54,345 nt of DNA from a virus. The notes beneath the pieces were generated by a model, which saw only the letters and a program-made list of their open reading frames with translations, did not search any database and was not told the DNA's origin. Made by a program: the position numbers and the translations under genes. Location: IMG/VR virus record IMGVR_UViG_3300020401_001611, positions 1-54,345 of that record; one strand, given 5' to 3'. Positions within the stretch are counted from its first letter, which is position 1. Each line of letters begins with the position of its first letter. Below, one piece after another: positions 1,807 to 52,847 of this stretch.

Positions 1807-1811
1807 ACTGA

Positions 1812-1819
1812 TATTTATA
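1812..1819 (-). promoter_or_regulatory. T4-type late promoter (TATAAATA)
   Basis: Reading the minus strand gives TATAAATA, the exact T4 late-promoter octamer recognised by gp55-type sigma factors. It is 5 bases upstream of the ATG at 1806 and follows the stop of the pyruvyltransferase gene. It would drive the nucleotidyltransferase-cupin, zf-CHCC and GT8 genes late in infection. The spacing puts the predicted transcript start at or next to the start codon. Confidence 0.6.
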
Positions 1820-1824
1820 TGCTA

Positions 1825-2586: not shown

Positions 2587-3290
2587 GCTATAAAATTATG
2601 GTAAAAACTAGAATCAGATGCAGTATGATTCAGCAACTTTTCTTTTGTACAAGTATTAAAATCTAAATCAATTATTTTATAATTTGTTTTGTCAAAAAAA
2701 TCGTATATATCTCCACTATTATAATTATAGTTTATCATATGTACATCTGCACATTCAAAGTATATAATTGGTTTATTTTTAGTAATAGTATCTATACAAC
2801 CTAATAATGTTTTTAATTCATTACCTTCTACATCAATTTTTATTAAGCCAACATTTTTAAAATTATAACTATCAAGTGTTCTTACTTCAACGGTTATGGT
2901 GTGGTATGTACCGTTTTGTCTTTGTTTTGTTAAGCCGCTCCAACCGCCTAGTTCTAAATCAATATGGAAATCTAATTGTCCTATTTCATCGCTCAGAGCA
3001 ACCTGATGAACATGCTGTGTGGCTTTTTTAAATTTAGGTTTGATTATACTTACAATTTTGGGTGTTGGTTCAAATAAATGTGCTTCGCTGTCAGGAAAAA
3101 ACTTAGCAATGTTTTTATACCAATTTCCTTTTCTTGCACCGATATCTATAATCATTTTTTGTGGTTTTAATTTTTTCTGCAAATAAGGAAATATAGCATT
3201 GTCTTCTTTACGTTTGTATTGCATGTAGACTTTTCCAATTTGCTTTTGCAACTTTGGGTATACTATCTCCTTTATACCATAGGTTGCCAT
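2574..3290 (-). CDS. FkbM-family SAM-dependent methyltransferase
   Basis: The 238-residue protein has a Rossmann methyltransferase core. SAM motif I is MIIDIGARKGNW (about 46-57), an acidic loop follows at HLFEP (71-75), and the FkbM signature LIKIDVEGNE lies near 149-158. FkbM enzymes O-methylate sugars and natural products. The annotated ATG at 3290 overlaps the upstream oxygenase gene by 83 bases. An internal ATG at 3224 (Met23) would shorten the overlap to 17 bases and still keep the whole catalytic domain, so the start is uncertain. It sits in the glycan cassette between an oxygenase and a pyruvyltransferase. Confidence 0.8.
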   Translation of the reverse strand: MATYGIKEIVYPKLQKQIGKVYMQYKRKEDNAIFPYLQKKLKPQKMIIDIGARKGNWYKNIAKFFPDSEAHLFEPTPKIVSIIKPKFKKATQHVHQVALSDEIGQLDFHIDLELGGWSGLTKQRQNGTYHTITVEVRTLDSYNFKNVGLIKIDVEGNELKTLLGCIDTITKNKPIIYFECADVHMINYNYNSGDIYDFFDKTNYKIIDLDFNTCTKEKLLNHTASDSSFYHNFIACPK

Positions 3291-4065
3291 ATACCTGTGT
3301 GCGTTGTAATTTAGTATGATCGTAATCTAATTTAACAGCATGTAATGTATTGTAATCAGGAGCAAACATTGTTATTGAATTATTTTTTGAATGCTCAAAA
3401 GATGTTTTAGCCCAATCCCACGGTACCCAACATGTATCTTTGGATGTGTTTGTTTTCCATTCTTCAAATATCCATTTTCTGTCATCTTGGAAATCCATAA
3501 AATGCGTATGTAAACCTAAGTCTTCAGCTTCGTCGTGTGTGTTAATATTAATCATATAGGTTGCACACTTACGTCTAATATCTGGGTGCGGACTAATTTC
3601 ATATCCGCTAACATATTTTTGTATTGCTGTATCTACACCAGTTTCGCCTGTCTTTTTGAATTTCTTTTTTATACATTTGTGCCATGCTTGACTGTTAAAG
3701 AAATCTACAAGTTCCTCTAATATTTTATCTTCATAGTATTTTAATCTAAATGCCACTCCATAACCTTCTAGTAAATCTTGATTAGCAACACCCTTTCCTA
3801 CATCTTTATTGTTATACCATTCGATATAACTTTTTACACTAGTTGTGCATCCTGGAAAAGGTTGAGGTTTGTATTTGAATTCGTCAGTAAGTCTACTACA
3901 CATTTCTTCAGTGGACTTAAATTCTGGCACTCTAATTTGTTTGCAATTTGTAATTCTTGAAAAATGGTCTTCTGTAAAAAAATCTTCTACATATATAAAC
4001 TTGAATGGTTGTTCTGTAAAATCAGCAGAATAGATTTTTTCTATTAGGTATGTAAAATCTTCCAT
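3208..4065 (-). CDS. 2OG-Fe(II) oxygenase-like protein
   Basis: From the ATG at 4065 this is 285 residues. The frame is open to a TTG at 4071, but the ATG has a good ribosome site (GGGAAGGA) at normal spacing. A double-stranded beta-helix oxygenase pattern is visible: a metal-binding HPD at about 160-162, a distal His near 242 (NTLHAV), and an Arg near 255 (QRTQVYG) positioned to bind 2-oxoglutarate. The N-terminal third is unique. It would hydroxylate a sugar, lipid or protein using O2 and 2-oxoglutarate. It leads the glycan cassette and has its own late promoter. Confidence 0.65.
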   Translation of the reverse strand: MEDFTYLIEKIYSADFTEQPFKFIYVEDFFTEDHFSRITNCKQIRVPEFKSTEEMCSRLTDEFKYKPQPFPGCTTSVKSYIEWYNNKDVGKGVANQDLLEGYGVAFRLKYYEDKILEELVDFFNSQAWHKCIKKKFKKTGETGVDTAIQKYVSGYEISPHPDIRRKCATYMININTHDEAEDLGLHTHFMDFQDDRKWIFEEWKTNTSKDTCWVPWDWAKTSFEHSKNNSITMFAPDYNTLHAVKLDYDHTKLQRTQVYGNLWYKGDSIPKVAKANWKSLHAIQT

Positions 4066-4083
4066 TGGCAATCCTTCCCTTTG

Positions 4084-30577: not shown

Positions 30578-31012
30578 ATGAAGAGTAAATCCATTATCTG
30601 TAGTGGTGCATTAGTATATGCACGTTCTACAAAACGTTTCTTATTATTATATAGAACACAAGGTCGTGCAAAAGACGTTTGGGGATTAGTAGGTGGAACT
30701 AATGAAGAGGCAGAAACTCCTTGGGAAGGTTTGCGTAGAGAAATATTTGAAGAGATAGGCGAGATAGATATAATCAAAACTGTGCCACTTGAAACATTTA
30801 TTTCTAACGATAGCAAATTCCAATTTCATACATATTTGTGTGTAGTTGATAAAGAATTTATACCTGCACTTAACGGAGAGCATAGCGGATATGCCTGGAT
30901 CACATTTAAGAGTTGGCCTAAACCTTTGCACAATGGATTGAAAAATACACTTAGTAATAAAGTAAATGTTACTAAATTAGAAACAGTATTTAAGGTAATG
31001 GATTTATTATGA
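30578..31012 (+). CDS. Nudix hydrolase
   Basis: The 144-residue enzyme has an intact Nudix box from G40 to E62 (GTNEEAE-x7-REIFEEIGE), matching G-x5-E-x7-REUXEEXGU exactly. It hydrolyses a nucleoside diphosphate linked to another group. The real substrate is unknown, and candidates include damaged nucleotides, ADP-sugars, NAD or capped RNA ends. Given the phage-encoded ADP-heptose pathway, a nucleotide-sugar is one option. It overlaps the cupin gene by 4 bases and follows gp15 by 13 bases. Confidence 0.9.
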   Translation: MKSKSIICSGALVYARSTKRFLLLYRTQGRAKDVWGLVGGTNEEAETPWEGLRREIFEEIGEIDIIKTVPLETFISNDSKFQFHTYLCVVDKEFIPALNGEHSGYAWITFKSWPKPLHNGLKNTLSNKVNVTKLETVFKVMDLL

Positions 31013-31368
31013 GCGAAAATGTAGAAAAAAGTAATTTTGGATATGAAGCATTATGGGCTAAAACTGAAAACTATGTTTCAAAAATACTTGTATTTGATAG
31101 TGTAGGCGCAGGATTACCTATGCATTTTCATAAGCAAACAGAAAAAACATGGTTTGTAAACACAGGTAATTTTAAAATTGCTTGGATAGATACAAGTAAC
31201 GGAATGCTATATGAAAAAGAAGTTAAAGAAGGAAGTGTATTTCATGTGCCTCCTTGTATGCCAGTTGGTTTAGAAAGTATGGTAGATGGAGGTAGTATTA
31301 CTCAAACAAGTAACAGAGATCCAAAAGGTGACTTCTATCAACTAAGGCCTGTACCAAAGGAAGAATAA
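31009..31368 (+). CDS. Cupin-domain protein
   Basis: The 119-residue single cupin has motif 1 as LPMHFHKQTEKTWFVNTG (HxH…E type) and motif 2 as GSVFHVPPCMPVGLES. The metal site looks intact. Cupins of this size act as sugar-phosphate isomerases, epimerases or dioxygenases, or as binding modules, and the sequence does not decide which. It is coupled to the Nudix and the 85-residue genes (ATG overlap at each end). It is one of three cupin domains in the window. Confidence 0.8.
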   Translation: MSENVEKSNFGYEALWAKTENYVSKILVFDSVGAGLPMHFHKQTEKTWFVNTGNFKIAWIDTSNGMLYEKEVKEGSVFHVPPCMPVGLESMVDGGSITQTSNRDPKGDFYQLRPVPKEE

Positions 31369-39878: not shown

Positions 39879-40211
39879 TTAACCTAAAATGCCGTGTGCA
39901 GTGAAAGCTCTAAGTGGTCCTGGCTCGAATCTATGTTCTGCTTCAGTGTTAGTTGACAGAGTGGTGCTACCTTCTGGTCTTGCCGGATCTATAGATTTTG
40001 TATATCTGTCAGCAATCATCTCATCTGTTTGGTCGATTTCGTAACCTATTTCTACCACAACTGCGCCTGCGTGTTCGGCGGCAAATACGTTTGCTTTTTC
40101 TTGATCTGGGAATTTTCTAATTTCTTCGTAACCGTCACCATCAGGATCCCATGTGTGATAAAGCATAACGTTGTCCACTGTTGGATGCGGTTTTTTTACT
40201 GCATATGGCAT
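39879..40211 (-). CDS. Hypothetical protein with WDPDGDG calcium-like loop
   Basis: From the ATG at 40211 (AGGAG site 8 bases upstream; a TTG at 40229 is in frame but less likely) the product is 110 residues. It has HTWDPDGDGYEEIR, which resembles an EF-hand or dockerin calcium loop, and a C-terminal FEPGPLRAFTAHGILG segment. No family is recognised. It follows the GmhB gene and precedes the fibre genes, so it may be a small virion-fibre accessory protein. Confidence 0.65.
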   Translation of the reverse strand: MPYAVKKPHPTVDNVMLYHTWDPDGDGYEEIRKFPDQEKANVFAAEHAGAVVVEIGYEIDQTDEMIADRYTKSIDPARPEGSTTLSTNTEAEHRFEPGPLRAFTAHGILG

Positions 40212-40225
40212 ATATTTTTCTCCTA

Positions 40226-40837
40226 TCAAAGCTGGTTTGCAAAATCAGCTAAATCGTCAAATACATAGGTTTTCTTTTTGATATCCTTGTATGTATACTT
40301 ATTTAGCTGTTTTTCAGTCTCACGTCCATAACCGGTTCTAACCAGAACAGGTCTTGCACCTACTTTGACTGCGGCACGTAAATCGCTCATTTTATCACCA
40401 ACAAAAAATCCTTGGCTCCATTTGATATCTTTGTGTTCTTTGGCGCATCTTTTAAACATGCCTGCATTAGGCTTTGCATACATATCATTTTTTTGACTAC
40501 TTTCGCTATAATATATTGCATCAATACTAGGACAACCTGCTTGCCCTAACAAATTAAGCATATGATCATGAACACTATCAACATCTTCAGCAGACATTAT
40601 ACCTTTTTGTATACCGCCTTGATTTGTTATAATTACTATTCTATGCCCTAGTTGTCTAATCTTTGCCACAGCTTCTAAGCTACCTTCAATTGGCTTAAAT
40701 TCGTTTGGTGATGTAACATATCTACATCCATCCTGATTTCCTAAATCTTGATTAATTACTCCATCTCTATCTAAACCTATTACGCATTTTGTAGGAATTA
40801 CTGGAGTTGCATTTGCGACTTTATACTTATCTATCAT
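40226..40837 (-). CDS. gmhB: GmhB-like D,D-heptose 1,7-bisphosphate phosphatase (HAD-IIIA)
   Basis: The 203-residue HAD phosphatase has D23-x-D25 (GLDRDGVINQD), the IITNQGGIQKG loop and the VGDKMSDLRAA acidic motif, matching GmhB/HisB-type enzymes of about 190 residues. GmhB removes the C7 phosphate from D-glycero-D-manno-heptose 1,7-bisphosphate, the step between the two HldE reactions. A histidinol phosphatase is a possible alternative by fold, but HldE and HldD are encoded in the same operon, which favours heptose. It overlaps the oxygenase gene upstream by 11 bases. Confidence 0.88.
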   Translation of the reverse strand: MIDKYKVANATPVIPTKCVIGLDRDGVINQDLGNQDGCRYVTSPNEFKPIEGSLEAVAKIRQLGHRIVIITNQGGIQKGIMSAEDVDSVHDHMLNLLGQAGCPSIDAIYYSESSQKNDMYAKPNAGMFKRCAKEHKDIKWSQGFFVGDKMSDLRAAVKVGARPVLVRTGYGRETEKQLNKYTYKDIKKKTYVFDDLADFANQL

Positions 40838-41405
40838 ATGTATACCAGCCTGTAATTATATATTTTTCTCCTTTGTAAATAGGATTTCCTCTATGTGGAT
40901 ACATGTAACTGGTAGGAAAAATAACTAGTTTTCCAGCTTCAGGTTTTAATTTTACACCTTGATATAAAAATTCTGTTTCGCCGCCTTCTTCTACATCATT
41001 AAGATATAGCATATAATTCATTACCCTTGAACAAGACCCTATATCTGCTGCCTCTGCATGCCAAGCATGATAACCTTGGTGTGGCTTTGATTTTTGTATG
41101 CTCATACCTTTTGGACTATGCTGTTCACTATTTTTTAGCATTTGATATTTTTCCATATAGGATTTTGTGTATACTTCATGCAATCTTTGATAAAAGTAAT
41201 CACACAATTTGAAATCATAATGATATTGATTTTGTGTATGTGCCCAATCAAAAACAATACGTTCGTCTTGATTAACGTCGAGATTATCTTGTTTATATGT
41301 AACTGCATTTCGTGCCATTACTTCAAAATGTTTTATTATTTCGTCGCAATAATCCTTTTCGTATGCAAGAGGATATTCTTCTATTCCGTTGTAATCGTCT
41401 TTCAT
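40827..41405 (-). CDS. 2OG-Fe(II) oxygenase, prolyl-4-hydroxylase-like
   Basis: The 192-residue protein has the P4H-type beta-helix: H116-x-E118 (WHAEAAD), distal H171 (YMYPHRGNP) and K181 (KGEKYIITGWY), the Lys that binds 2-oxoglutarate in this subfamily. Glu replaces the usual Asp in the HxD pair. GGETEFLYQG and EAGKLVIFPTSY are typical. Substrates in the family are prolines, other residues or sugars. It is embedded in the heptose operon with 4- and 11-base overlaps. Confidence 0.85.
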   Translation of the reverse strand: MKDDYNGIEEYPLAYEKDYCDEIIKHFEVMARNAVTYKQDNLDVNQDERIVFDWAHTQNQYHYDFKLCDYFYQRLHEVYTKSYMEKYQMLKNSEQHSPKGMSIQKSKPHQGYHAWHAEAADIGSCSRVMNYMLYLNDVEEGGETEFLYQGVKLKPEAGKLVIFPTSYMYPHRGNPIYKGEKYIITGWYTYDR

Positions 41406-42208
41406 TGTGTTTCCTTTATATATGGTATATATTCTTTTGCGATCTTTTCATGTGTAGGAGTATCGTAATGCTCGGAATCAACCATACCTATGTCATGTCC
41501 TTTATTTTTTAGATAGGTAATAGCATCGATATTTGCAATCTGTGTTGCTTTTAAGTTTGTTAAGTAGTTATCTGTTTGCTGTGGTATAAAACATTTTGAA
41601 TTAATATTGAATAAATGCATTTTTTTCTCGTTATACAAGCAAAGTGCATCGCAAGCTAATATATCTTTAAAATAATCATACTGCTCAAGATGTGTGTTTG
41701 AATAATGCCACATCTGCATGTACATATGACTGCTTCTACGAACATCAGGTTCGCTTACAAAAGGTTTTGTGTTACGCAAGTATGGTGTTTGTTCAAAATC
41801 TTCACGCTTAGGTTTTAAGTAATACTCTACATACTTTTCTTGATAAAACCCTAGTGCATATCTTTTTATTAAATCTCCTTCTGACGGAGCTTCTTCAATA
41901 AAAAAGTCTATAGGAAAAATACTTCTTTCATCTAGATCAGGATTGATAGCTACAGGAAATCTGCCCCAATATGTGCTTTGCACAAAAACTTCGTCAATGT
42001 CGTTAAACTTTTGTAAAGCAAAACTTAAGAACCTTGGCCATAGTGCATTGCCTGCTCCTGCACTTGCCATAATTACTACAGGCTTATTGTTTTGTTTTGC
42101 ATATATTTCTGCATAGTTATTGTCTTGCCAGGGATAACATCCATGGTTATCTCCAGGATCTAGAAATCCCATAGTATGACTACAACCTATAAACAGAGAT
42201 CTAGACAA
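41402..42208 (-). CDS. SGNH-hydrolase-like protein, TTG start
   Basis: The frame is open from a TTG at 42229, but an AAGGAG ribosome site lies inside that region, 9 bases before a second TTG at 42208, which I take as the start (268 residues). The N terminus then reads MSRSLFIGCSHTMG, with Ser10 in an SGNH block I. The C terminus has VDSEHYDTPTHEKIA, a D-x-x-H pair typical of block V. SGNH enzymes act as O-acetyl esterases or transferases on glycans. It overlaps the cupin gene by 8 bases. The function in the heptose operon is unassigned. Confidence 0.65.
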   Translation of the reverse strand: MSRSLFIGCSHTMGFLDPGDNHGCYPWQDNNYAEIYAKQNNKPVVIMASAGAGNALWPRFLSFALQKFNDIDEVFVQSTYWGRFPVAINPDLDERSIFPIDFFIEEAPSEGDLIKRYALGFYQEKYVEYYLKPKREDFEQTPYLRNTKPFVSEPDVRRSSHMYMQMWHYSNTHLEQYDYFKDILACDALCLYNEKKMHLFNINSKCFIPQQTDNYLTNLKATQIANIDAITYLKNKGHDIGMVDSEHYDTPTHEKIAKEYIPYIKETQ

Positions 42209-42563
42209 CTTGACTATCTCCTTTTTCAACTCTATAATTATCTTCTATACTATCTGGGGTACTAACTTCTATAATCGTACCTTGTTCTAAACAAAGTAAT
42301 TGGTGAGGAAGCATTGGAGGATTATGCCATGTATCTCCCTTTTCTAAAGGTTCTGCATCAACGTCTGCGGTTTTTGTATCAATTGTTTTTACGACAAATT
42401 TTCCGCTTAATACATACCATGTTTCGTCTTTATCTTTGTGCATGTGCATGCTAAATTTTGCACCTGTGTTAAAATTTAACAATTTTCCACAATATAAATC
42501 ATTAGTAGCAAATATTGTTTCGCTACCCCAACCTTTTTCAACTGTACCTTTTAATCTACTCAT
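42201..42563 (-). CDS. Cupin (mannose-6-phosphate isomerase type II-like)
   Basis: The 120-residue cupin has KGWGSETIF, motif 1 FSMHMHKDKDETWYVLSG and motif 2 KGDTWHNPPMLPHQLLC, the pattern of the C-terminal cupin of ManC or type II PMI and of phage-encoded sugar cupins. It could isomerise or epimerise a sugar phosphate, or bind a sugar. Translation is coupled to the oxygenase upstream (8-base overlap) and to the SGNH gene downstream. It is related in type to the cupin half of the fusion at 1036-1806. Confidence 0.82.
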   Translation of the reverse strand: MSRLKGTVEKGWGSETIFATNDLYCGKLLNFNTGAKFSMHMHKDKDETWYVLSGKFVVKTIDTKTADVDAEPLEKGDTWHNPPMLPHQLLCLEQGTIIEVSTPDSIEDNYRVEKGDSQVV

Positions 42564-43158
42564 TTGCTTCCTTTATACTAAAATTTGCCGCTATTGTTAT
42601 TCTACGTTTTTCTGATCTCATTGGTAACACATAATGTGTTAGCCAACTAGGAAATAATATCAATGTTCCATTTTCTAATTTAGGCATAATATGTTGATAC
42701 TGCCACTTATCAAATATTCTATTTAACCCGCTGTATTTTACAGTAGCAAAATTAGGACATTCAAAAACTAAATCTCCACCTTCTGTATCTTTATCTAATT
42801 CCATAATATATATTGCACTTAAAGACCTTCCGGGAAATGCGTGTTCGTGACTTTCTTGAAAATCGCCTTTGCTGTACATGTTTACCCAGAACTCATCACT
42901 ATGTATCATAAAAGGCATTGTAGGTTGTAAGGATTGTAGATGTTCGTCTACATAAGGTTTAATTGCTTCAAACCAAGTGTTCCACGGAAATTTATCGTTA
43001 CTTTTATTCCGTATACTACTTTTGCAATCTCCGTATGTCCATGGACTATCAAAATTATTATCGTCATTTAACATAGGTAAAAATTGTTCATAAACCTCTT
43101 GATGATTTTCAATTACAGTTGAATAAATCCAAGTTGGCCAAATAGCATCAGTTGTCAT
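42556..43158 (-). CDS. 2OG-Fe(II) oxygenase (PF13759-like)
   Basis: The 200-residue protein starts at the ATG overlapping the preceding stop (ATGA, 43158). A TTG at 43167 is also in frame. It has NMYSKGDFQESHEHAFPG with H104-x-H106, then RSLSAIYIM, ILFPSWLTHYVLP with H175, and an Arg near 185. This is the pattern of the putative 2OG oxygenases common in marine T4-like phages. The substrate is unknown. It is the middle of a run of oxygenases in the heptose operon. Confidence 0.85.
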   Translation of the reverse strand: MTTDAIWPTWIYSTVIENHQEVYEQFLPMLNDDNNFDSPWTYGDCKSSIRNKSNDKFPWNTWFEAIKPYVDEHLQSLQPTMPFMIHSDEFWVNMYSKGDFQESHEHAFPGRSLSAIYIMELDKDTEGGDLVFECPNFATVKYSGLNRIFDKWQYQHIMPKLENGTLILFPSWLTHYVLPMRSEKRRITIAANFSIKEANE

Positions 43159-43673
43159 TCTCCCCAACCTCCTGCTGGTTGTTCTCGCACATCAAAGAAG
43201 AAAACTTGTGTAAGTCTGCCGCTTTCTGGTGTATTTCCAAATCCAGATAGCAAACTTCTGTGTAATAAATCACCTCTATACAATACAAGTCTGTTGTAAA
43301 CATTTCCTATTGCATCAACAAGTTCAAATTCTCCTTGTTTATCTTCCTTGAATATTCCAGTGCCTGCTTCAATAGGAGCATTTGGTGTAAGGTATAATAT
43401 TCCTGCCCACATAGACGGATCTTTATGTACCCACGTTTCAGCACCTTCGTAACATAATTGATAGCAAAAACTATCCATTAAGAATTGTGTTATTTTTACA
43501 CCCATGATATCTTCAAATCTTGTTTTGCAATACATTTGAAAATCATCATCTGTTGCATGGGATCTCTTGCCTGGAAATTCTCCACTAGTAGGAAAATCAA
43601 GTTTTATAACTTGTTCTCTAACAAGATCTGGTTTTGGTAAAAAATTATCTACTATAAAAAGACTTGTACTCAT
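43155..43673 (-). CDS. 2OG-Fe(II) oxygenase (DUF6445-like)
   Basis: The 172-residue protein has H83-x-D85 (WVHKDPSMWAGILYLTP), distal H138 (GDLLHRSLLSGFG) and R153 (SGRLTQVFFFDV), an intact facial triad plus a 2-oxoglutarate Arg. The WAGILYLTPNAP and GTGIF segments are those of the DUF6445 group as I recall it. A small-molecule or protein substrate is possible. It overlaps both HldD and the next oxygenase by 4 bases each. Confidence 0.82.
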   Translation of the reverse strand: MSTSLFIVDNFLPKPDLVREQVIKLDFPTSGEFPGKRSHATDDDFQMYCKTRFEDIMGVKITQFLMDSFCYQLCYEGAETWVHKDPSMWAGILYLTPNAPIEAGTGIFKEDKQGEFELVDAIGNVYNRLVLYRGDLLHRSLLSGFGNTPESGRLTQVFFFDVREQPAGGWGE

Positions 43674-44473
43674 TTTAAATATTCCTCTATAGTTTGAAAC
43701 CTAAATTTTAACACAGTATTAAGTTTTTCTAAATTTGCACAAGTATAACTTTGATACTGATGTTTTAAGTTTTCAGGCATAGGTATATATTTTATTTTTG
43801 CATTATATTTTTTTGCAATTAAATCTGCTACTTGTTTAAAACTTACAGCTTTACCTGTACCAATATTATATATGCCTTTTTCTTTTATGTCAAACATTTT
43901 TTCATGTATTTTGCATATATCAGACACACATATAAAATCTCTTTTATAGTTTTCACTGTCTGTAAAAATTGTAATTTCGCCTTCTTCTTGTGCTTGTTTA
44001 GTAAACTTTGTTATAGGACTTGCTTGATTGCCTTTGTGTTCTTCATGAGGCCCGTATACATTAAAGTAACGGAATCCTTGAAATATAATTTTTGGGTGTA
44101 TACCTGTCACCCATCTATCAAATAAATATTTGCTCCAAGCATAAGGACTTTTAGGATCACTAGGTCCATCTTCTTTGAAATGTGTTGTGTTACCATACAC
44201 ACTTGCACTTGATGCATATTGCATGTTTACATTATATTGATTACATTGATTAAACAACCATTTTGAAAATTCATAATTGTGTAATATTACTTTATCTACG
44301 TCTGTTTCAGTAGTTGAACTTATTGCACCTAGATGTATTACCCAATCATAATCCTTTACAAGAGGTAAATTTTCTGGATGGAAGTCATAGCCAGCTACTT
44401 CGTGTTTTGTTTCTAAGTAGGACATAATATTTTGTCCTATAAACCCTTTATGACCTGTTATCAATATTCTCAT
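43670..44473 (-). CDS. hldD: HldD-like ADP-heptose 6-epimerase (SDR)
   Basis: The 267-residue extended SDR converts ADP-D-glycero-D-manno-heptose to the L-glycero form. The NAD(P) motif is G7-x2-G10-x2-G13, the catalytic pair is Y111-x3-K115 with SSASVYG at 88-94, and GAISSTTETD and FNVYGPHEEHKGNQAS are strongly HldD-like. It is shorter than E. coli HldD (310) but complete in motifs. It overlaps HldE by 26 bases, so the two are tightly coupled. Other sugar epimerases share the fold, but the HKG-x2-AS segment favours HldD. Confidence 0.9.
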   Translation of the reverse strand: MRILITGHKGFIGQNIMSYLETKHEVAGYDFHPENLPLVKDYDWVIHLGAISSTTETDVDKVILHNYEFSKWLFNQCNQYNVNMQYASSASVYGNTTHFKEDGPSDPKSPYAWSKYLFDRWVTGIHPKIIFQGFRYFNVYGPHEEHKGNQASPITKFTKQAQEEGEITIFTDSENYKRDFICVSDICKIHEKMFDIKEKGIYNIGTGKAVSFKQVADLIAKKYNAKIKYIPMPENLKHQYQSYTCANLEKLNTVLKFRFQTIEEYLK

Positions 44474-45599
44474 CTATTATCCTTGTAGTGCTATGCCCTT
44501 CAACTGTAGGAAAAATTACTACTTCTGCTAATTCGTTACCTACTACAGTTTTGACTGTATAATCTCCACCTTTGACAATAATATCTGGTTCTAATTTGGT
44601 AATAGCTTCCAAAGGTGTATCTTCTTCAAACACAATCACATCATCAACAAAACCTAGTTCTAATAGGCTTTCCTTGCGGGTGTCTTCTCCGTTAATGGGT
44701 CTTAAATTGCCTTTTAAGCGTTTGACACTACTATCGCTGTTAATACCCACTATAAGTCTATTTCCAAGCGTTTTTGCGTGTCTAAGAAGCTTCAAATGGC
44801 CAATATGTAATATATCAAACACACCATTAGTAAACACTACAGTATGTTCTACATCTTCACGTTTTAAGATATACGTACCTGCATGTTTTACACTTTCAGT
44901 TGATCCTTTTACAGCAACCTCTAAGCATTTTTTATGTGTATAACCTTTTGTTAATCCATAAACAAATCCAGCGATAAAACAGTCACCTGCTCCAGTAACA
45001 TCAGATACTTCAACAGTTTCTACAGGTACTGTATATTCTTTATCTTCAATTGTAGCATTCACACTGTGTCCTGCATCGGTTGTAATAATGTTACCTTTCC
45101 ATTCATTAAAATTAAATTTATAAAATTCACTATTGTTAGGTTTCACTAACCAAGCACCTTCGTAATCATCTGCAAAACGTTTTGGGTCAACAATTATTTT
45201 ACAATCAAATTTATTAATATGTTTTATAATTTTTTTAGAATTATCTAAAGTGCCTTTGTTGTAATCACTTAAAACAACAATATTATAAGCAGAAAAGTCT
45301 GCCTGTTTTATTCTTTGTAATACAGCGTCACCGTCTGCATTTTTATCTTCGTCAATGCGTGTTATATAATGTCCGTCACAAATAATTCTAGTTTTTATAC
45401 TATGGTCTTCTAGTGTGTCATACATTTCTACATCTACACCTAGGCTTTTCAAATTATCATATACTAATGCCGCACCTCCCATAGTAGTTTTTTCTTGTGT
45501 AAACGTAACAACTGGTACAGGTGCTTCCGGACTAATTCTTTTGCTAGTACCGTAAATATACTTGTCTTTTATAATATCACCTATTACAAGAACTTTCAT
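44448..45599 (-). CDS. hldE: HldE-like bifunctional heptose-7-phosphate kinase / heptose-1-phosphate adenylyltransferase
   Basis: This 383-residue fusion is shorter than E. coli HldE (477). Residues 1-248 are a PfkB-type kinase with TTMGGAALVYDNLKSLG (38-54), the anion-hole GAGD at 203-206 and SPEAPVPV (23-30). Residues 252-383 are the adenylyltransferase with HIGH at 265-268, VGINSDSSVKRLKG and the GHSTTRII end. It would phosphorylate D-glycero-D-manno-heptose 7-phosphate at C1 and later add AMP. The shortened kinase seems to lose peripheral parts, not the active site. It overlaps the next oxygenase gene by 4 bases. Confidence 0.93.
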   Translation of the reverse strand: MKVLVIGDIIKDKYIYGTSKRISPEAPVPVVTFTQEKTTMGGAALVYDNLKSLGVDVEMYDTLEDHSIKTRIICDGHYITRIDEDKNADGDAVLQRIKQADFSAYNIVVLSDYNKGTLDNSKKIIKHINKFDCKIIVDPKRFADDYEGAWLVKPNNSEFYKFNFNEWKGNIITTDAGHSVNATIEDKEYTVPVETVEVSDVTGAGDCFIAGFVYGLTKGYTHKKCLEVAVKGSTESVKHAGTYILKREDVEHTVVFTNGVFDILHIGHLKLLRHAKTLGNRLIVGINSDSSVKRLKGNLRPINGEDTRKESLLELGFVDDVIVFEEDTPLEAITKLEPDIIVKGGDYTVKTVVGNELAEVVIFPTVEGHSTTRIIDENIDNRS

Positions 45600-46123
45600 G
45601 AAAAATTATAATCCATATAAATATTTCCTGATACTGTAGATCCTTCATTGCCTGGCATAACAAAATGTTCAATCATACTAGGAAAAATTACAATATCTCC
45701 TTTTTTACATTCTGGCCTAAAATCTAAAGGAAATCTTGGATGGCCTCCGGATCCTATTTGATTTTGAATCAGTCTATAATTAGGATTCATAAAGACAGTT
45801 TTACCCTGTGGCACACTTTCATAAATTATAAAACTCCATTGACAGTTTGGATGAATGTGAATATCTTGCCAATCTTTTTGAGTGTAAGTGTTCCTCCATA
45901 TTTCTCCGAATCTTGGATTTTGGCCTATCAAATCTTGTGGCATTAGATCCAAAATTATAGATTGTAAATATTCAAAAGTTTCGGGTTCAATATCATGTTC
46001 TTTGCCAAAACTAGATTCAACTTCACTTAACCAAATTTTTTCAGTAGCCTTGTGGGTTATTTTTATTTTATCTAAATCTACCTTGCCAATAAAAAAAGGT
46101 ATTGCCCACATGTCATAATGCAT
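45596..46123 (-). CDS. 2OG-Fe(II) oxygenase-like (PF13759-like), atypical ligands
   Basis: The 175-residue protein has RNTYTQKDWQDIHIHPN (H89, H91, N93), then QWSFIIY and GDIVIFPSMIEHFVMPG with H153. The expected late Arg is not obvious: the strand reads STVSGNIYMDY. The fold is clear, but the metal and cofactor contacts differ from the oxygenase at 42556, so it may be a diverged or specialised enzyme. It is translationally coupled on both sides (TAATG and TCATGA). Confidence 0.78.
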   Translation of the reverse strand: MHYDMWAIPFFIGKVDLDKIKITHKATEKIWLSEVESSFGKEHDIEPETFEYLQSIILDLMPQDLIGQNPRFGEIWRNTYTQKDWQDIHIHPNCQWSFIIYESVPQGKTVFMNPNYRLIQNQIGSGGHPRFPLDFRPECKKGDIVIFPSMIEHFVMPGNEGSTVSGNIYMDYNFS

Positions 46124-46770
46124 TAAGTTCTCCAGGGTTGATTATTCTTAGGAGGTAGTGGTTGAGCTCTCATTGTTTTGTATACAAGTGTTGCACGTAG
46201 TCCCTTATAAGAATCGTTTGGTGGTAATCCATGATGTGGAATTTTACCTTTGAATAAGAAAATGCGTCCAGGCTTTGGATAAACTTTCTTCCATTCACCA
46301 TCTAATTTAATAATAGTTTCTCCACCCCATTCTTCTTTCCATTCTCTATTTACATAATAGATCCAACTAATACCATTATCACATTGACAGTCTGTATGTT
46401 CAACAGTGTTATGAATCCATTGTTGACCGTTAACTAGTATTTCTCCTATTTCTAATTCAAAAGGAATCATCTGTGCTACTGCATTGTATATCATGTTCCA
46501 GCTAGAGTCGTGTGCATTTGGACTGTTTGGTGGATAAATTTGTTGTTTAAACGCAGGAACTTCCGGCCAATCTGGAATAGCACCTACATCAGTTCTTGGA
46601 TCTTCAGGATAGTTACTAGTATGTCCGTAAAACCAACTGTATGTGTTAAAAACTTGATCGTGTACATGTTCTATTACATATTGTGGAAATAAGTCATCTA
46701 TTACTATCATTTGATCTTCGGCTAGATCAAATTCTGATAAATCTTTTGCTTCTTTACCATTAATTAACAT
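46123..46770 (-). CDS. 2OG-Fe(II) oxygenase (P4H-like)
   Basis: The 215-residue protein has an N-terminal IDDLFPQYVIEHVHDQVF strand-helix and a C-terminal beta-helix with H125-x-D127 (VEHTDCQCDN), GGETIIKLDGEW, KPGRIFLFKGKIPHHGLPP (H179 or H180) and R192 (GLRATLVYKT). All the metal and cofactor residues are present. It is the first oxygenase after the carbamoyltransferase gene, overlapping it by 11 bases. The presence of several full-length oxygenases suggests multi-step hydroxylation of an unknown acceptor. Confidence 0.87.
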   Translation of the reverse strand: MLINGKEAKDLSEFDLAEDQMIVIDDLFPQYVIEHVHDQVFNTYSWFYGHTSNYPEDPRTDVGAIPDWPEVPAFKQQIYPPNSPNAHDSSWNMIYNAVAQMIPFELEIGEILVNGQQWIHNTVEHTDCQCDNGISWIYYVNREWKEEWGGETIIKLDGEWKKVYPKPGRIFLFKGKIPHHGLPPNDSYKGLRATLVYKTMRAQPLPPKNNQPWRT

Positions 46771-48565
46771 TTTCTACCTTTGCTAAAATATTGTGTTCTG
46801 CTATATACAAATATTCAATATCACTATTAGCAAGAGTTCTAAATGCATCATCTAAAGTTTCTACAAGCGGTTCTCCGCCTAAATTAAATGATGTATTGAA
46901 TATAATCGGAACACCTGTTTGTTTATAGAATTCATTTATGTAATCGTAGTATAATGGATTCTGTTCTCTTGTTACTGTTTGAATGCGACATGTACCATCT
47001 ACGTGTATTATACTTGGTATTTTTTCTTCTACACCAGGTTGACAGTTCATTGCATACATCATATGGGGTGAATCTTTCATTCCACGCATATCAAACCATT
47101 CTTCTGCATGTTCTGCTAGTATTGTACCAGCAAACGGACGGAAGTATTCTCTACGTTTTACTTTATTCACATGATCCTTGCCATTAGGGTCTGTTGGATC
47201 ATACATAAGACTCCTATTTCCTAAAGCTCTTGGTCCTGCTTCTGAACGTCCTTGGAACATTGCAATAATATTCTTGTTACACATTAATTTTACTACATCT
47301 TCTATTTCTACTTTTTCTAATGTAGCACCATATGTATCTGCTAAGTGTCCTATTTCTTTGTCGTCATAACTGTAACGTAAACCTAAATATAAACTTTCAC
47401 CAAATGGCATAACTTCTTTATTCTGTGATGTTTGATGATATGCAATGTATGCCGCACCAATTGCTGTTCCAGCATCACTTGATATTGGTTCAACATATAA
47501 ATTAATATCCATGTTTTTTAGTGTATCTAAGTAATAGTAGTTAGCAACACAATTAAGTCCATACCCTCCACTTAAAACAATATTTTTGTTACCTGTACGC
47601 TGTACAGCGTTTAAAATAAGTTCTAGAACTTGTTCTTGGCTTTCTGTCTGAACTGCATATGCTAGGTCTCTTCTGTTGTCTAAATCAACTAGTTCTTTTT
47701 GCGGGGTGTTATCTGGTGTTGTTAATTCATTAAAAAAGTTTTCATTTACTAACGCGGCATTAGGATATGTAGGTTTAATAAGATTTGCATTTGCCACTGT
47801 CCATTTACCGCCTGCATTTTGATATATAGGTGGAATTTTTTTGTTAGGTTTACCATAAGGAGAAAGTCCCATAGTCTTACCTGCTTCAATAGCTGTAAAT
47901 CCACAGTACTGTGTCACAGCTTCATATGCTTTTACAATGCCTGCTCCGTCATCAATAATAACATCATGTGTCCCTTCTTCATCAAACTTTTCGCTTGTCA
48001 TTTCCGACACATGTGCCGCTCTAAATGGTCCGTTGCCACCTAGGTGTTTCCAAATAGTTTTTATATTGTATGGATATTCGCATGTAAATATACTTTCTAA
48101 TTCGTATAGCATATTGTCCAGTCCATCCATTTGTGCAGGCATGAATGTACCAGCACCGTCAACAATTACTGCTGTAGCTGTTTCAAATCCACTTCTATAA
48201 AATGCACAAGCCGCATGTAACTTATGATGTATATGGCTAAGATCGACTACTTGAGGATGATTCAATACATCTATACTGGGGCTGTTATCAATTAATCCAA
48301 GTTTACGTGCAAGTCCTGTATAAACATCGTCACCAGTAAAGTCAACTTTACCTGCTGTTTCTTCAAGTGGCTGAGTGTGTGCAATAACTAAAAAGTCAAT
48401 TTTATCTGTATAATTTAAAATTTTTACCATACTTGCATATGGTCCGCCATCATATTTTTGCCTACTTAATCTTTCTTCTTCGATTGCAAATACAATTTTG
48501 CCGTCCTTAAGTAAGCAGACGCCTCCGTTATGACCTCTTGTTATTGCCGCAATCCATTGACTCAT
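46760..48565 (-). CDS. O-carbamoyltransferase, NodU/CmcH family
   Basis: The 601-residue enzyme transfers a carbamoyl group from carbamoyl phosphate (via carbamoyl-AMP) to a hydroxyl. The N-terminal ASKHA-type half has AAITRGHNGGVCLLKDGK and HIHHKLHAACAF, and the YrdC/TobZ-like C-terminal half has GRSEAGPRALGNRSL and REYFRPFAGTIL. The length is normal for the family. Family members carbamoylate sugars in Nod factors, antibiotics and, in P. aeruginosa (WapO), LPS heptose. It follows the GT9-like gene with a TAATG coupling, which makes carbamoyl-heptose the most likely product here. Confidence 0.95.
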   Translation of the reverse strand: MSQWIAAITRGHNGGVCLLKDGKIVFAIEEERLSRQKYDGGPYASMVKILNYTDKIDFLVIAHTQPLEETAGKVDFTGDDVYTGLARKLGLIDNSPSIDVLNHPQVVDLSHIHHKLHAACAFYRSGFETATAVIVDGAGTFMPAQMDGLDNMLYELESIFTCEYPYNIKTIWKHLGGNGPFRAAHVSEMTSEKFDEEGTHDVIIDDGAGIVKAYEAVTQYCGFTAIEAGKTMGLSPYGKPNKKIPPIYQNAGGKWTVANANLIKPTYPNAALVNENFFNELTTPDNTPQKELVDLDNRRDLAYAVQTESQEQVLELILNAVQRTGNKNIVLSGGYGLNCVANYYYLDTLKNMDINLYVEPISSDAGTAIGAAYIAYHQTSQNKEVMPFGESLYLGLRYSYDDKEIGHLADTYGATLEKVEIEDVVKLMCNKNIIAMFQGRSEAGPRALGNRSLMYDPTDPNGKDHVNKVKRREYFRPFAGTILAEHAEEWFDMRGMKDSPHMMYAMNCQPGVEEKIPSIIHVDGTCRIQTVTREQNPLYYDYINEFYKQTGVPIIFNTSFNLGGEPLVETLDDAFRTLANSDIEYLYIAEHNILAKVENVN

Positions 48566-49587
48566 TATTTTTTATCTCCGGATAAATTACTATTACCTGG
48601 TATCAACTTAGACATTTGTTTTTTTGTGTCTGGAGTTTTACTAACACTGCTTTTTCCTAAAACTTTTCTTACACTGTTACATATTTCTTCTATTTGTGTT
48701 TCTGTAAGTTCCATAACTTCATCGTTATGTCTGTCTTGTTCTTCTTCCATTGTCAAACGTATAGGTGCGTATAATCTTTTTCCTTCACCTACGTCAATAA
48801 TATCAAACTTAGGATCATCAGGATATGAAATATTGATAGGGTATGTGCTTCCTGTTACAATAGTTGCTGTGCCGCCTAATGCTTTTACCATATGTTGTCC
48901 TAAACTGTCACACCCTAAAAAATGATCAGCTACATCAATAATGCTTGACCAAATTCTTAATTCTGGAATTTGAGGTTGTGCAACAGGATACTTTGTGTTT
49001 TCACTTTCTTCTAAAGGTACAGGTATTTCACTCATTATAATAACGCCATACTCTTTTTTTAGAATATTAATTATATCAACAATATTGTTTAGCTGGAAAC
49101 TTCTGCTTGTAGGATCAATTATAAAATCGCCGTGTGTTTCTGTAGATCTTCCAAAAGGTTGAACAACTAAAACTTTGTCTTTTCCAGTTTTTTGTTTTAC
49201 TTCATCTACTATTGTTGCCGCAGTCACCATTTCCTGTTTGTTTATATAGATATTTGGTTTGTCTAATTTGCGAACACCTTCTCCATTTATTTCAATATCA
49301 AATGCTTGTGCAAGATCACATTTTTGATTGTAGTATTCCCATATTCTATATGGTTCTGGTGAAATACAATTCCTATGTTTTATATGTTCTTCAAATAATC
49401 CTTTGTGCCAATGGTCATATGCTCTGTTATGAAGGGTAGGATGTCCTTTGTAAAAATCCATACCTGCTTCACAAACAATTATAAAGTCATCATTGGGATT
49501 TTCTTTTTGGTATAGCTCAAATGCAGGAATAGAACAGATAACTCTGCCTGCTCCTCCGTTAATAAAAAATGCAGTAGATCTTGTCAA
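48565..49587 (-). CDS. GT9/heptosyltransferase-like glycosyltransferase, TTG start
   Basis: The 340-residue protein begins with a TTG codon at 49587 (AAGGAG site 7 bases upstream; no nearer ATG fits). GT-B type features are an N-terminal FINGGAGRVICSIPAFE, then VLVVQPFGRSTE at about 139-150, and a C-terminal GCDSLGQHMVKALGG at about 225-239, matching the D-S-x-x-x-H site of GT9 heptosyltransferases. The C-terminal tail is charged and variable. With HldE and HldD in the operon, it would use ADP-heptose. The acceptor (LPS or protein) is not visible from sequence. Confidence 0.78.
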   Translation of the reverse strand: MTRSTAFFINGGAGRVICSIPAFELYQKENPNDDFIIVCEAGMDFYKGHPTLHNRAYDHWHKGLFEEHIKHRNCISPEPYRIWEYYNQKCDLAQAFDIEINGEGVRKLDKPNIYINKQEMVTAATIVDEVKQKTGKDKVLVVQPFGRSTETHGDFIIDPTSRSFQLNNIVDIINILKKEYGVIIMSEIPVPLEESENTKYPVAQPQIPELRIWSSIIDVADHFLGCDSLGQHMVKALGGTATIVTGSTYPINISYPDDPKFDIIDVGEGKRLYAPIRLTMEEEQDRHNDEVMELTETQIEEICNSVRKVLGKSSVSKTPDTKKQMSKLIPGNSNLSGDKK

Positions 49588-49699: not shown

Positions 49700-50428
49700 T
49701 TACATAATAATTGATGTTGTATCTGGATCTATCATTCCTGTTTCTGGATCTGCACCAACTTGTATTGGTTCCATGTAATAAGCAAACAATGGTGGAATGC
49801 CATTTGATTGCATTGTATTAGGCCAGTCACGCAGTCTCTGTCTATAATCTTTCCAAGCATTTTTTAGATCAGTTGGCATGTCATCAACAATTTCTGCATC
49901 ACTGTTTTTTAACAATGAATCTCTTTTTGCTCTTACATCATCCCATGTAAGATCTCTCTCAACGTCTATCCCCATAACAGTATCTCTAGGTTCTCTAGTA
50001 GGTAAAGTAGGTGTACCATCTTCGGCAAACGTAATCTTTTCTCTATCTATAAATTGATAAGGAAGCACAGGTGTTTGATATGTAAATTTTGCATATCCTG
50101 TTATATCTTTTGCTCCTGTTGGCGTTGCTTCTCCAGTATGATCCTCTTCCATTTCGTCAATAATAGGTCCTCTAAGTTGACATAATACTGGATTTTTAAT
50201 GCAGTCTATTTCTACGTATCTACAATCCTCTGGCACTGGTCTGCCGTCATTTTTTTCTATTTCAGTAATAGGTCCTAATTCTTCTTTGCCCGTTGCATTG
50301 TTTACAATGAAGAAAAGTTTGTCTGGACCGTCATATGTAGCTGTCCGCGTTTTTCCATCAGTAAACGTATGATCAACACACAATTCATTCGGTATATCGT
50401 ATGTATATTCAAATTGTACCATTGGCAT
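49700..50428 (-). CDS. Tail-fibre assembly chaperone-like protein
   Basis: The 242-residue protein ends with a helical segment WDDVRAKRDSLLKNSDAEI…LKNAWKDYRQRLRDWPN that matches the tail-fibre assembly/chaperone signature (RD-x-L…W-x-x-YRQ-x-LRD-x-P). The N-terminal part is beta-rich with a GPDKLFFIVNNATG strand. It probably helps fold or attach the fibres encoded upstream. It is the last gene before the terminator and has its own late promoter and AAGGAG site. Confidence 0.78.
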   Translation of the reverse strand: MPMVQFEYTYDIPNELCVDHTFTDGKTRTATYDGPDKLFFIVNNATGKEELGPITEIEKNDGRPVPEDCRYVEIDCIKNPVLCQLRGPIIDEMEEDHTGEATPTGAKDITGYAKFTYQTPVLPYQFIDREKITFAEDGTPTLPTREPRDTVMGIDVERDLTWDDVRAKRDSLLKNSDAEIVDDMPTDLKNAWKDYRQRLRDWPNTMQSNGIPPLFAYYMEPIQVGADPETGMIDPDTTSIIM

Positions 50429-50449: not shown

Positions 50450-50457
50450 TATTTATT
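50450..50457 (-). promoter_or_regulatory. Late promoter (AATAAATA) before the chaperone-like gene
   Basis: The minus strand reads AAATAAATATATTAACAAGGAG, 21 bases upstream of the ATG at 50428. It overlaps the stop of the Cys-rich gene upstream and leaves a short leader with AAGGAG. Confidence 0.65.
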
Positions 50458-51266
50458 TAAAAGTACGTTAGTTTTACTAGTCCTGGACCGCCGGTTCCAC
50501 CCTGTCCACAACATCTACCACAATAGTTTGATGTTGCTGATTGTCCGCCCATTCCATAGGGTACAATCCAACAACCGCATCTAATCCAACATACGTTTGA
50601 ATTTTGTTCTGCATATCCTGTGTTTAATCTTACTGCACCTGTTGAATGCCCAATATGCTTCCAACAGTGGCAAGCCCATCCCGGATACATAAATGCTGAC
50701 TGTCCTTGGAAGTTACCACCGTGTGTATAACCTACATAATCTCCACTTGAACTTGTACCGTTACATCCTGGTCTAACACAGTATGGCATAGTACTATGAC
50801 ACTGATCAGTCCATGCAGTGTTTGCACAGCCTAATTGCCCGCCACATGCACAGACACATAATCCATATCCACAAACAAAAGAACTACAGCCGTTACATCC
50901 AAAACATTCTCTACTCAAGCATCTATAAACGCCTGCGGCACACATTCTATATGTGCATCCAGCATTAGTCTGTACGTGCTTGCTTGTGTAAGCACCACCC
51001 CCTGGTGGTTTTGTATGATGACATCTGTTACATGAACATGCACCATTTCCGTTACCGCCTGCACCCCATAGTTCAAATGTTGCATTTCTAGTATTTGACG
51101 GCATAGTAAACAAACAACAGCATCCTGCAGAACATCTACAAGGATTACCGTATGTCCATTTTACACACCAATTATCCCGTACACCGTTGACAAAATTATT
51201 TGAATCAACAGCACCATCAACAATTTGACTGCTTGTAACTTTTTTGTAACTTCTATAATTTGCCAT
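50457..51266 (-). CDS. Cys-rich virion/fibre protein, paralogue 1
   Basis: The 269-residue protein has about 31 Cys. It shares a scaffold with two neighbours: YKKVTSSQIVDGAV, CRCSAGCCC (43-51), FELWGAGGNGNGACSCNRCHH, YRCLSRECFGCNGC, CWIRCGCWIVPYGMGGQ and YCGRCCGQGGTGG. The GAGGNG core is a phage Gly-rich fibre domain in which many Gly are replaced by Cys. Cys pairs and His suggest metal binding or dense disulphides. It is a fibre or virion surface protein by context. No signal peptide is present. Confidence 0.82.
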   Translation of the reverse strand: MANYRSYKKVTSSQIVDGAVDSNNFVNGVRDNWCVKWTYGNPCRCSAGCCCLFTMPSNTRNATFELWGAGGNGNGACSCNRCHHTKPPGGGAYTSKHVQTNAGCTYRMCAAGVYRCLSRECFGCNGCSSFVCGYGLCVCACGGQLGCANTAWTDQCHSTMPYCVRPGCNGTSSSGDYVGYTHGGNFQGQSAFMYPGWACHCWKHIGHSTGAVRLNTGYAEQNSNVCWIRCGCWIVPYGMGGQSATSNYCGRCCGQGGTGGPGLVKLTYF

Positions 51267-51274
51267 ATTTTATC

Positions 51275-52054
51275 CTAAATATAAGTAATCCTAACTAAGC
51301 CGCCGCCTCCGGTGCCTCCTTGACCGCAACAACGTCCGCAGTATGTGTTCATTGCACTCTGTCCACCTGTTCCGTATGGTACACTCCAACAACCACAACG
51401 TACCCAACATTGTCTAATACCTTGACTAGATATAGCTCCTATGATAGGTGCAACACCTTGATGAATTTCTTGTGGGTGACAATGACAGTATGTGCCTGCT
51501 GTACTAAATGCAGGATTTTGTGATACTACATACATATCTCCGTTGTTATGGGTAGGACATCTACAATATGCATTTGTTCCAAAACAGCCATTTGACCATG
51601 CTGTGTTAGCTTCTGATCTATAGCCTCCGCATGCACAGAATCCTGATAAATTATAACCGTTCATGTATGTTGTACAACCGTTACAACCTGTGCATTCACG
51701 GCTTAAACATCTGTACACCCCTGCCGCACATACACTGTATGTACAACCCGGTGCAGTAGCAATGGTTTTTGTGTTATGACTTCCTCCCATAGCAGCCTTG
51801 AAATGATGACATCTATTACATGAGCAAGCACCAGCTCCGTTGCCTCCTGCTCCCCATAATTCAATTGTCATTCTACATACACCTGTTGGAACTGTCCAAT
51901 TACAGCAACAACCAGATGAACATCTGCATGGAATACCATGGAACCATTTTACACCAAAATTATTCAACGTATTTGAATTGATGTCATTATCGGTTAACGT
52001 ACCATTTACGAATTGATCACCGTGTACTTTCTTATAACTTGCATATGTAGCCAT
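51275..52054 (-). CDS. Cys-rich virion/fibre protein, paralogue 2
   Basis: The 259-residue protein has about 28 Cys and many His. It opens MATYASYKKVHGDQFVNGTL, then CRCSSGCCC, IELWGAGGNGAGACSCNRCHH, CNGCTTYMNGYNL and CWVRCGCWSVPYGTGGQ. It is the most divergent of the three in the middle, with fewer CxC pairs around the central FCACGG region. An AAGGAA ribosome site precedes the ATG. It has the same likely fibre or decoration role. The variation between paralogues looks suited to host-range or surface-binding changes, which is inference. Confidence 0.82.
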   Translation of the reverse strand: MATYASYKKVHGDQFVNGTLTDNDINSNTLNNFGVKWFHGIPCRCSSGCCCNWTVPTGVCRMTIELWGAGGNGAGACSCNRCHHFKAAMGGSHNTKTIATAPGCTYSVCAAGVYRCLSRECTGCNGCTTYMNGYNLSGFCACGGYRSEANTAWSNGCFGTNAYCRCPTHNNGDMYVVSQNPAFSTAGTYCHCHPQEIHQGVAPIIGAISSQGIRQCWVRCGCWSVPYGTGGQSAMNTYCGRCCGQGGTGGGGLVRITYI

Positions 52055-52064
52055 TAATTATTCC

Positions 52065-52847
52065 TTACGTAAATGTTAATTTTACAACTCCTGGTCCACC
52101 TGTACCACCTTGTCCACAACAACGTCCACAGTATGAATTCATAGCACCTTGTCCACCGTGTCCTGGAGGTGCAATCCAACAACCACAGCGTATCCAACAC
52201 ACAGATTGAGATGTTGCAACATTTCCTCCTAGGAAAGGAGCCGCTGTTGGTCTTACATACTGATGGTGACAATGACAGTTAAATATTCCGCTAAAATGCC
52301 CAGTGTGACTCATAATATGAAAATCACCTCTACCTGTGCTGCATCCTGGTGCAATACAACAGGTCCAACAACTCATACAATAATGTGTCCAATCTGTATT
52401 TGCATTTGCACAACGTCCGCCAACTGTACAAAGTTGACATGCATTGTATCCGCAAACATAAGATATACAACCATTACATGATGAGCAGTTTCTACTTAGG
52501 CAACGATATACCCCACCTGCACACATTCTGTATTGGCATCCAGGTGTAGTTGAAACCATTTTTGAATTGTAAGAACCGCCACCAGCACCTTGGAAATGGT
52601 GACATCTGTTACATGAGCATGCACCTTGGCCATTGCCTCCTGCCGCCCAAAGTTCAAAATAAACACGTCTAGTACATGCAGGTACTGTCCATAAACAACA
52701 ACATCCTGCAGAACAACGACAAGCGTTGCCTATTAACCATTTAGTGCATAATCTATGTCTTACATCGGTACCAAGTTTATCTTCAGTAACAGTGCCGTCA
52801 ATAATTTGTTCGTTTGTGACTTTTTTATAACTTTCATATGTGGCCAT
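52065..52847 (-). CDS. Cys-rich virion/fibre protein, paralogue 3
   Basis: The 260-residue protein has about 33 Cys, the highest of the three (about 13 percent). It has YKKVTNEQIIDGTVTEDKLG, CRCSAGCCC, FELWAAGGNGQGACSCNRCHH, a dense HYCMSCWTCC stretch, CHCHHQY and CWIRCGCWIAPPGHGGQ. The Cys-x-Cys and Cys-His clusters suggest metal co-ordination. It is the first of the three paralogues in transcription order, following the fibre gene at 52860 with an AGGAG site. Confidence 0.82.
   Translation of the reverse strand: MATYESYKKVTNEQIIDGTVTEDKLGTDVRHRLCTKWLIGNACRCSAGCCCLWTVPACTRRVYFELWAAGGNGQGACSCNRCHHFQGAGGGSYNSKMVSTTPGCQYRMCAGGVYRCLSRNCSSCNGCISYVCGYNACQLCTVGGRCANANTDWTHYCMSCWTCCIAPGCSTGRGDFHIMSHTGHFSGIFNCHCHHQYVRPTAAPFLGGNVATSQSVCWIRCGCWIAPPGHGGQGAMNSYCGRCCGQGGTGGPGVVKLTFT

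Follow-up and report, generated by a model that had tools for sequence, protein, structure and literature searches.

The virions of mycobacteriophages are glycosylated, and these phages encode glycosyltransferases acting on virion proteins; to our knowledge, neither heptose nor a carbamoyl group nor a Cys-rich substrate is involved there. For a sugar attached to cysteine sulphur, a precedent is given by the glycocin S-glycosyltransferases of the SunS type, which belong to another fold family, use another donor and modify a peptide rather than a fibre. A third group is formed by the BAHT heptosyltransferases, like TibC and AAH, which use ADP-heptose and target an adhesin encoded nearby (TibA and AIDA-I). 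The S-SSM6a gene cluster was read as secondary-metabolite or capsule decoration in the passage of Iyer et al. 2021 (PMC7824862) that deals with it. Among open-licence papers, none was found that joins phage, ADP-heptose and fibre glycosylation.

The stretch analysed here, referred to as the window, is a virus record of 54,345 bases, which is apparently a myovirus fragment (sheath, UvsX, UvsY and gp32 are present). The nearest relatives of its large terminase were identified in PA5oct-type jumbo phages, with 54% identity. On the minus strand, positions 40226-49587 are occupied by an operon in which neighbouring genes overlap or almost abut. A previous sequence-only reading had assigned to this operon GmhB, HldE, HldD, a GT9-like protein and a NodU-type carbamoyltransferase, with fibre genes on either side. 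Every named gene was found, on the minus strand and overlapping or nearly so; three Cys/Gly-rich paralogues and a tail-assembly chaperone lie upstream, and tail or fibre genes lie downstream. In addition, the operon contains five oxygenase-type genes (four 2OG-Fe(II) oxygenases and one DUF6445 gene), a cupin and an SGNH-like gene, none of which had been included in that reading; the same holds for the extreme Cys content of the adjoining fibres, with 28-33 Cys per approximately 260 aa. The features are as follows, all on the minus strand:

52065..52847, minus: Cys/Gly-rich tail-fibre paralogue 1, proposed substrate; 260 aa, 33 Cys; weak Gly_rich_2 Pfam match
51275..52054, minus: Cys/Gly-rich tail-fibre paralogue 2, proposed substrate; 259 aa, 28 Cys
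50457..51266, minus: Cys/Gly-rich tail-fibre paralogue 3, proposed substrate; 269 aa, 31 Cys; AF2 model
49700..50428, minus: tail-fibre assembly chaperone-like protein (Phage_tail_APC); PF16778, E 2.8e-11
48565..49587, minus: GT9-fold glycosyltransferase, proposed fibre heptosyltransferase; PHROG 8954; AF2 fold; Arg15 at the position of the GT9 catalytic Asp
46760..48565, minus: NodU/TobZ-type carbamoyltransferase; PF16861, E 1.6e-59, and PF02543
46123..46770, minus: 2OG-Fe(II) oxygenase; PF13640, E 1.2e-7
45596..46123, minus: 2OG-Fe(II) oxygenase; PF13759, E 6.9e-10
44448..45599, minus: HldE, fused heptose-7-P kinase and heptose-1-P adenylyltransferase; 383 aa; profile and motifs
43670..44473, minus: HldD, ADP-heptose 6-epimerase; profile; YxxxK and HKG motifs retained
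43155..43673, minus: DUF6445 protein, presumably oxygenase-like; PF20043, E 4.9e-10
42556..43167, minus: 2OG-Fe(II) oxygenase; PF13759, E 8.6e-15
42201..42563, minus: PMI-type cupin, candidate GmhA replacement; PF01050 and PF07883 above cut-off
41402..42229, minus: SGNH/GDSL-like protein; class suggested by a GCSHT motif
40827..41405, minus: 2OG-Fe(II) oxygenase; PF13640, E 3.3e-14
40226..40837, minus: GmhB, heptose-1,7-bisphosphate 7-phosphatase; profile and HAD motifs; lacks the zinc loop seen in the E. coli protein
39879..40229, minus: small conserved protein closing the operon; retained in close relatives

The SGNH-like protein gave no match in Pfam, PHROG or NCBIfam. Four module proteins were negative in PADLOC, and a role as a defence system was rejected on this basis.

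On balance, we consider it probable that this late operon serves to decorate the phage's own tail fibres with heptose or carbamoyl-heptose, possibly S-linked to cysteine. In the proposed pathway, either the PMI-type cupin or a GmhA of the host would isomerise sedoheptulose-7-P, giving D,D-manno-heptose-7-P. From homology and motifs, the HldE kinase, GmhB, the HldE adenylyltransferase and HldD are predicted to produce ADP-heptose. The GT9-fold enzyme would move the heptose onto the adjoining Cys-rich fibres in the infected cell, as suggested by a complete genetic linkage; the NodU-type enzyme would carbamoylate the sugar, and the 2OG oxygenases, or halogenases in relatives, may introduce further changes.

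By homology, the genes of a predicted ADP-heptose pathway are present in the window. Against the HldE model, whose curated cut-off is 521, the HldE of the window scored 272 bits; it contains the motifs DVTGAGD and HxGH, and with 383 aa it is compact compared to the 477 aa of the E. coli protein. For HldD, 240 bits were obtained (cut-off 275), and the SDR fold, YxxxK and the HldD-specific lysine of HKG are all present. GmhB reached 138 bits (cut-off 178) and shows DxDGxIN and the later HAD motifs, which place it in the GmhB/HisB-N group. Thus, all three proteins score below the curated equivalog cut-offs with their catalytic motifs intact, and profiles, motifs and fold together back the previous proposal of ADP-heptose synthesis combined with a heptosyltransferase-fold enzyme and a carbamoyltransferase.

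GmhA, the SIS-domain phosphoheptose isomerase, had been named as the missing member. It is absent from the window and was identified in none of 17 related records, in a search in which the S. elongatus control likewise gave no score. Since these records include relatives of the window and four complete cyanophage genomes, the absence is not just an effect of the fragment, and a GmhA hidden elsewhere in the genome was rejected. The cyanophage protein annotated as "phosphoheptose isomerase" (GC306) was also rejected as GmhA, being a short HAD protein. For the T4-GC 306 proteins (L003:26708-27043, L006:20021-20365 and equivalents), this label is likely an error spread via PHROG 1238. All 41 loci with HldE and HldD contain the cupin; 21 of them carry GmhB alone, 16 the short HAD instead, one both and three neither. 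The short HAD probably replaces GmhB, because the two are mutually exclusive in 37 of the 38 HldE-HldD-cupin loci holding at least one of them. Where HldE is not located near the GT9-like gene, it was mostly found 8-15 kb away, adjoining HldD and the cupin, and for most of these loci a true absence of HldE was rejected. An exception is L015, in which HldE is present with neither HldD nor a cupin within the stretch fetched.

The metal ligands of the PMI-type cupin (H40, H42, E47 and H87, forming an HxH...E...H site) are invariant, and its profile matches D-lyxose/D-mannose and L-ribose isomerases (2Y0O, 7NZO, 5AVP), among other cupins. The GmhA reaction has its six-carbon counterpart in the conversion of fructose-6-P to mannose-6-P, and for this reason the cupin is put forward as a tentative candidate for the replacement of GmhA, to which we give somewhat less than an even chance. 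A role as a Cys dioxygenase acting on the fibres is disfavoured, since the cupin tracks the HldE genes even in phages without the GT9-like gene; the protein L006:20346-20702 (T4-GC 307, PHROG 7851), labelled "cysteine dioxygenase", is a PMI-like cupin following the HldE genes.

Further sugar genes were identified outside the operon. At the left end of the window (198-4071), a second cluster comprises a GT8-like transferase, a cupin fusion, an FkbM methyltransferase and two unassigned genes. The fusion (1036-1806) joins an HldE-C-like nucleotidyltransferase part to a PMI cupin, which lends weak added support to the cupin as GmhA replacement. Nucleotidyltransferase-type proteins of approximately 260 aa akin to it were identified in four relatives (G001, G005, G009 and G011). 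A second cupin, with a metal motif partly missing, is encoded on the plus strand at 31009-31368 and adjoins a NUDIX gene at 30578-31012.

For the GT9-like protein of the window, no Pfam match was obtained, PF01075 included, and PHROG 8954 was the only assignment; a PDB sequence search with the GT9-like or the fibre alignment gave nothing useful. The sequence-only reading had suggested comparing its predicted structure with heptosyltransferases. An AF2 model built from 38 homologues (pLDDT 89) was used; ranks 1-30 of its PDB matches are occupied exclusively by GT9 heptosyltransferases and TibC, with a probability of 1.00. At the top stand the GT9 protein 3TOV, TibC and the LPS enzymes WaaF and WaaC (E 1e-9 to 7e-8; next 7.6e-6). 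HHalign of the family against a set of GT9 homologues gave 96-98% probability over residues 7-260; this set was required, as WaaC as a single sequence gave no match. The Vibrio SBP1 homologue reaches 25.4 bits with PF01075, above the cut-off of 22. A match to an NCBIfam acyltransferase (E 1.9e-4) is partial, far below cut-off and at odds with the fold, and was rejected.

WaaC Asp13, which we take to be the catalytic residue, aligns with Arg15 of the GT9-like protein. This arginine is invariant in 99 of 99 sequences including the schitoviruses, as are Arg162 and His232, and the catalytic Asp of GT9 (WaaC Asp13, TibC Asp110) is absent from all 99. As modelled, the family represents a clade of GT9 fold whose active site has changed, and its sugar and acceptor could depart from the GT9 norms; a thiol acceptor would suit the loss of the GT9 catalytic base. 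The GT9 fold itself does not discriminate between an LPS and a protein target.

The module is not peculiar to the phage of the window. Homologues of the GT9-like gene occur in the cultured Kyanoviridae P-SSM2, P-SSM5, S-SSM7, S-CAM1, S-CAM3 and Sf-FS3 and in at least 524 confirmed viral stretches; cultured cyanophages sequenced since P-SSM2 carry the module. The gene order is fibres, chaperone, GT9-like gene, carbamoyltransferase and then the heptose genes; in 79 of 87 loci, no more than 2.5 kb separate the GT9-like gene from the chaperone upstream. Among ten long relatives, psbA was identified in G002 only; it is also present in four cultured cyanophages. Bacterial and archaeal MAGs (genome_contigs L091-L097) contain the GT9-like gene with the same fibre cassette, and these are probably misbinned phage contigs.

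The linkage to Cys-rich fibres was counted in those 78 loci in which 3 kb or more of sequence precedes the GT9-like gene, Cys-rich being defined as at least 7% Cys. A Cys-rich fibre-type ORF is present within 7 kb upstream in all 78 loci, which are related to one another and do not represent 78 independent events. Of the 206 Cys-rich ORFs of these loci, not one is located outside this region, and six complete or near-complete cyanophages lacking the GT9-like gene contain no Cys-rich ORF among 681 with a length of 150 aa or more. For fibre paralogue 3, the best PDB match of an AF2 model of moderate quality (pLDDT 73) is the fibre of cyanophage Pam3 (7YPX, E 6.8e-6).

The heptose might instead be added, perhaps carbamoylated, to the host surface, where it would remodel the LPS and block superinfection or alter receptors. 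This would suit the origin of HldE, HldD and GmhB in LPS-core synthesis and the fold that the transferase shares with WaaC and WaaF. In addition, the cyanophages S-T4, Sf-CH8, P-TIM68 and S-SM2 have no GT9-like gene but carry the heptose genes next to ordinary glycosyltransferases, and the precursor can thus have other uses. However, the transferase is strictly tied to genes for tail fibres and not to other LPS genes, and the LPS of marine Synechococcus WH8102 and CC9311 contains neither heptose nor KDO (PMC4515613). Sf-FS3, which infects WH8102, nevertheless carries the module. The Vibrio and Aeromonas hosts are expected to make heptose, and their schitoviruses are without sugar-supply genes in the regions read. 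Remodelling of host LPS is thus considered quite unlikely. The sequence-only reading had left the choice between LPS and fibres open; its fibre alternative is favoured by the 78/78 linkage, the unrelated phages and the controls lacking the GT9-like gene, and its LPS alternative is disfavoured. Nothing in the analysis backs the parallel it had drawn to carbamoylated heptose (WapO) in Pseudomonas LPS.

The carbamoyltransferase contains both the Carbam_trans_N and the Carbam_trans_C domain, has 7XB6, TobZ and GdmN as PDB relatives and has the GT9-like gene upstream of it in each of 86 loci; its acceptor would be the heptose. A 2OG or DUF6445 gene is present in 68 of 78 loci. Tryptophan-halogenase-type genes lie near 41 of 78, for example L053:16708-18186, L020:13525-15036 and L042:11295-12770, which would fit a cluster making a halogenated, carbamoylated small molecule or a capsule decoration, as was read for S-SSM6a in the passage cited above. 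However, that passage of PMC7824862 is silent on the GT9-like gene and the Cys-rich fibres, the halogenases are not always present, in contrast to the near-constant GT9, carbamoyltransferase and fibres, and the schitoviruses retain only GT9 and fibres in the regions read. We regard such a product as very unlikely. In the relative L031 (16046-20082), two radical SAM proteins, one of them with SPASM, and a possible amidinotransferase-like gene adjoin the transferase, which suggests a still richer modification island.

In the schitoviruses Aeromonas HJ05 and Vibrio SBP1 and D505, a distant GT9-like gene directly adjoins unrelated Cys-rich tail proteins; HldE, HldD and the carbamoyltransferase were not identified in the regions read of the three phages. 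The adjoining protein has 13 Cys in 100 aa in HJ05 and 41 Cys in SBP1, and in both phages it is the ORF with the densest Cys stretch of the genome, although a few shorter or antisense ORFs come close. Homologues of the SBP1 protein in VBP47, 1.261.O, 1.037.O, 11E33.1 and 9g have Cys at none of 61 aligned positions, 40 of which are polar or charged and some of which are counted more than once. No GT9-like gene was found in VBP47, 1.261.O, 1.037.O and 9g, which were searched whole. Between two phages with the GT9-like gene, 11 of 14 Cys within the first 264 residues are common to both.

Alternatively, the fibres might be disulphide- or metal-stabilised adhesins, with the GT9-like enzyme modifying Ser, Thr or hydroxylated residues or just co-travelling in the cassette; this shares its target with fibre decoration but competes with it as to which residue is the acceptor and what causes the linkage. 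Within the fibre family of the window, many positions with Cys are conserved, disulphides are a frequent cause of Cys richness, and hydroxylated acceptors could be provided by the 2OG oxygenases. However, Cys richness recurs in unrelated fibres beside GT9-like genes, homologous domains retain their sequence without Cys, and the window fibres hold 31, 28 and 33 Cys, so that these are not always pairable. Overall, this alternative appears rather unlikely.

For decoration of the fibres by the transferase, the schitoviruses provide independent support of a link between transferase, Cys and fibre. The cysteines track the enzyme and not the fold. On these grounds the fibres are favoured as the substrate, with cysteine as the foremost candidate for the acceptor. 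Overall, there is strong circumstantial evidence for the fibres as target. Against fibre decoration stand the loss of the catalytic Asp, the relatedness of the loci, the absence of GmhA everywhere and L015 without HldD and cupin; the linkage could also mirror the transfer of a whole fibre cassette, which the schitovirus cases weaken. A more specific version, in which the clade consists of cysteine S-heptosyltransferases, phages provide their fibres with surface cysteines bearing S-linked heptose, the sugar is carbamoylated in marine T4-like phages and the cupin replaces GmhA in some of them for heptose-less hosts, is conceivable but doubtful.

If fibre decoration is true, it would represent a virus-encoded protein glycosylation with its own sugar supply, possibly via cysteine and tied to host recognition; a cysteine-linked heptose on fibres would be a new type of virus protein modification. 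It would also account for a gene block in the best-studied ocean phages which since P-SSM2 has been left as hypothetical or as sugar metabolism, and it corrects the standing annotations "phosphoheptose isomerase" and "cysteine dioxygenase". The predictions are testable in cultured phages and in E. coli.

Compared to the known systems, the transferase of the window shares with the BAHT proteins a GT-B/GT9-like fold, TibC being among the closest solved structures, along with the proposed donor and a nearby target. In contrast to BAHT, it has no N-terminal beta-barrel, the Rossmann strand starting at residue 5 of the model; no BAHT model of NCBIfam matched, which also speaks against a four-Cys iron finger, and the catalytic Asp (Asp110 in TibC) is replaced by Arg. 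The substrates differ as well, with the Cys-rich fibres proposed here and beta-helical autotransporters modified on Ser in BAHT. With WaaC and WaaF of GT9, it has in common the fold, the D....H nucleotide-sugar loop and the alignment over residues 7-260, whereas it contains Arg15 for Asp13 and is linked to tail fibres and not to LPS genes. The same module in the same gene order is present in the P-SSM2/S-SSM7 cluster (T4-GC 302-308) and in the S-SSM6a cluster, the order in P-SSM2/S-SSM7 being GT9-like gene, carbamoyltransferase, HldE halves, HAD, cupin and HldD. Clusters of this type contain two separate HldE parts and a short HAD, whereas the window encodes a fused HldE and a true GmhB.
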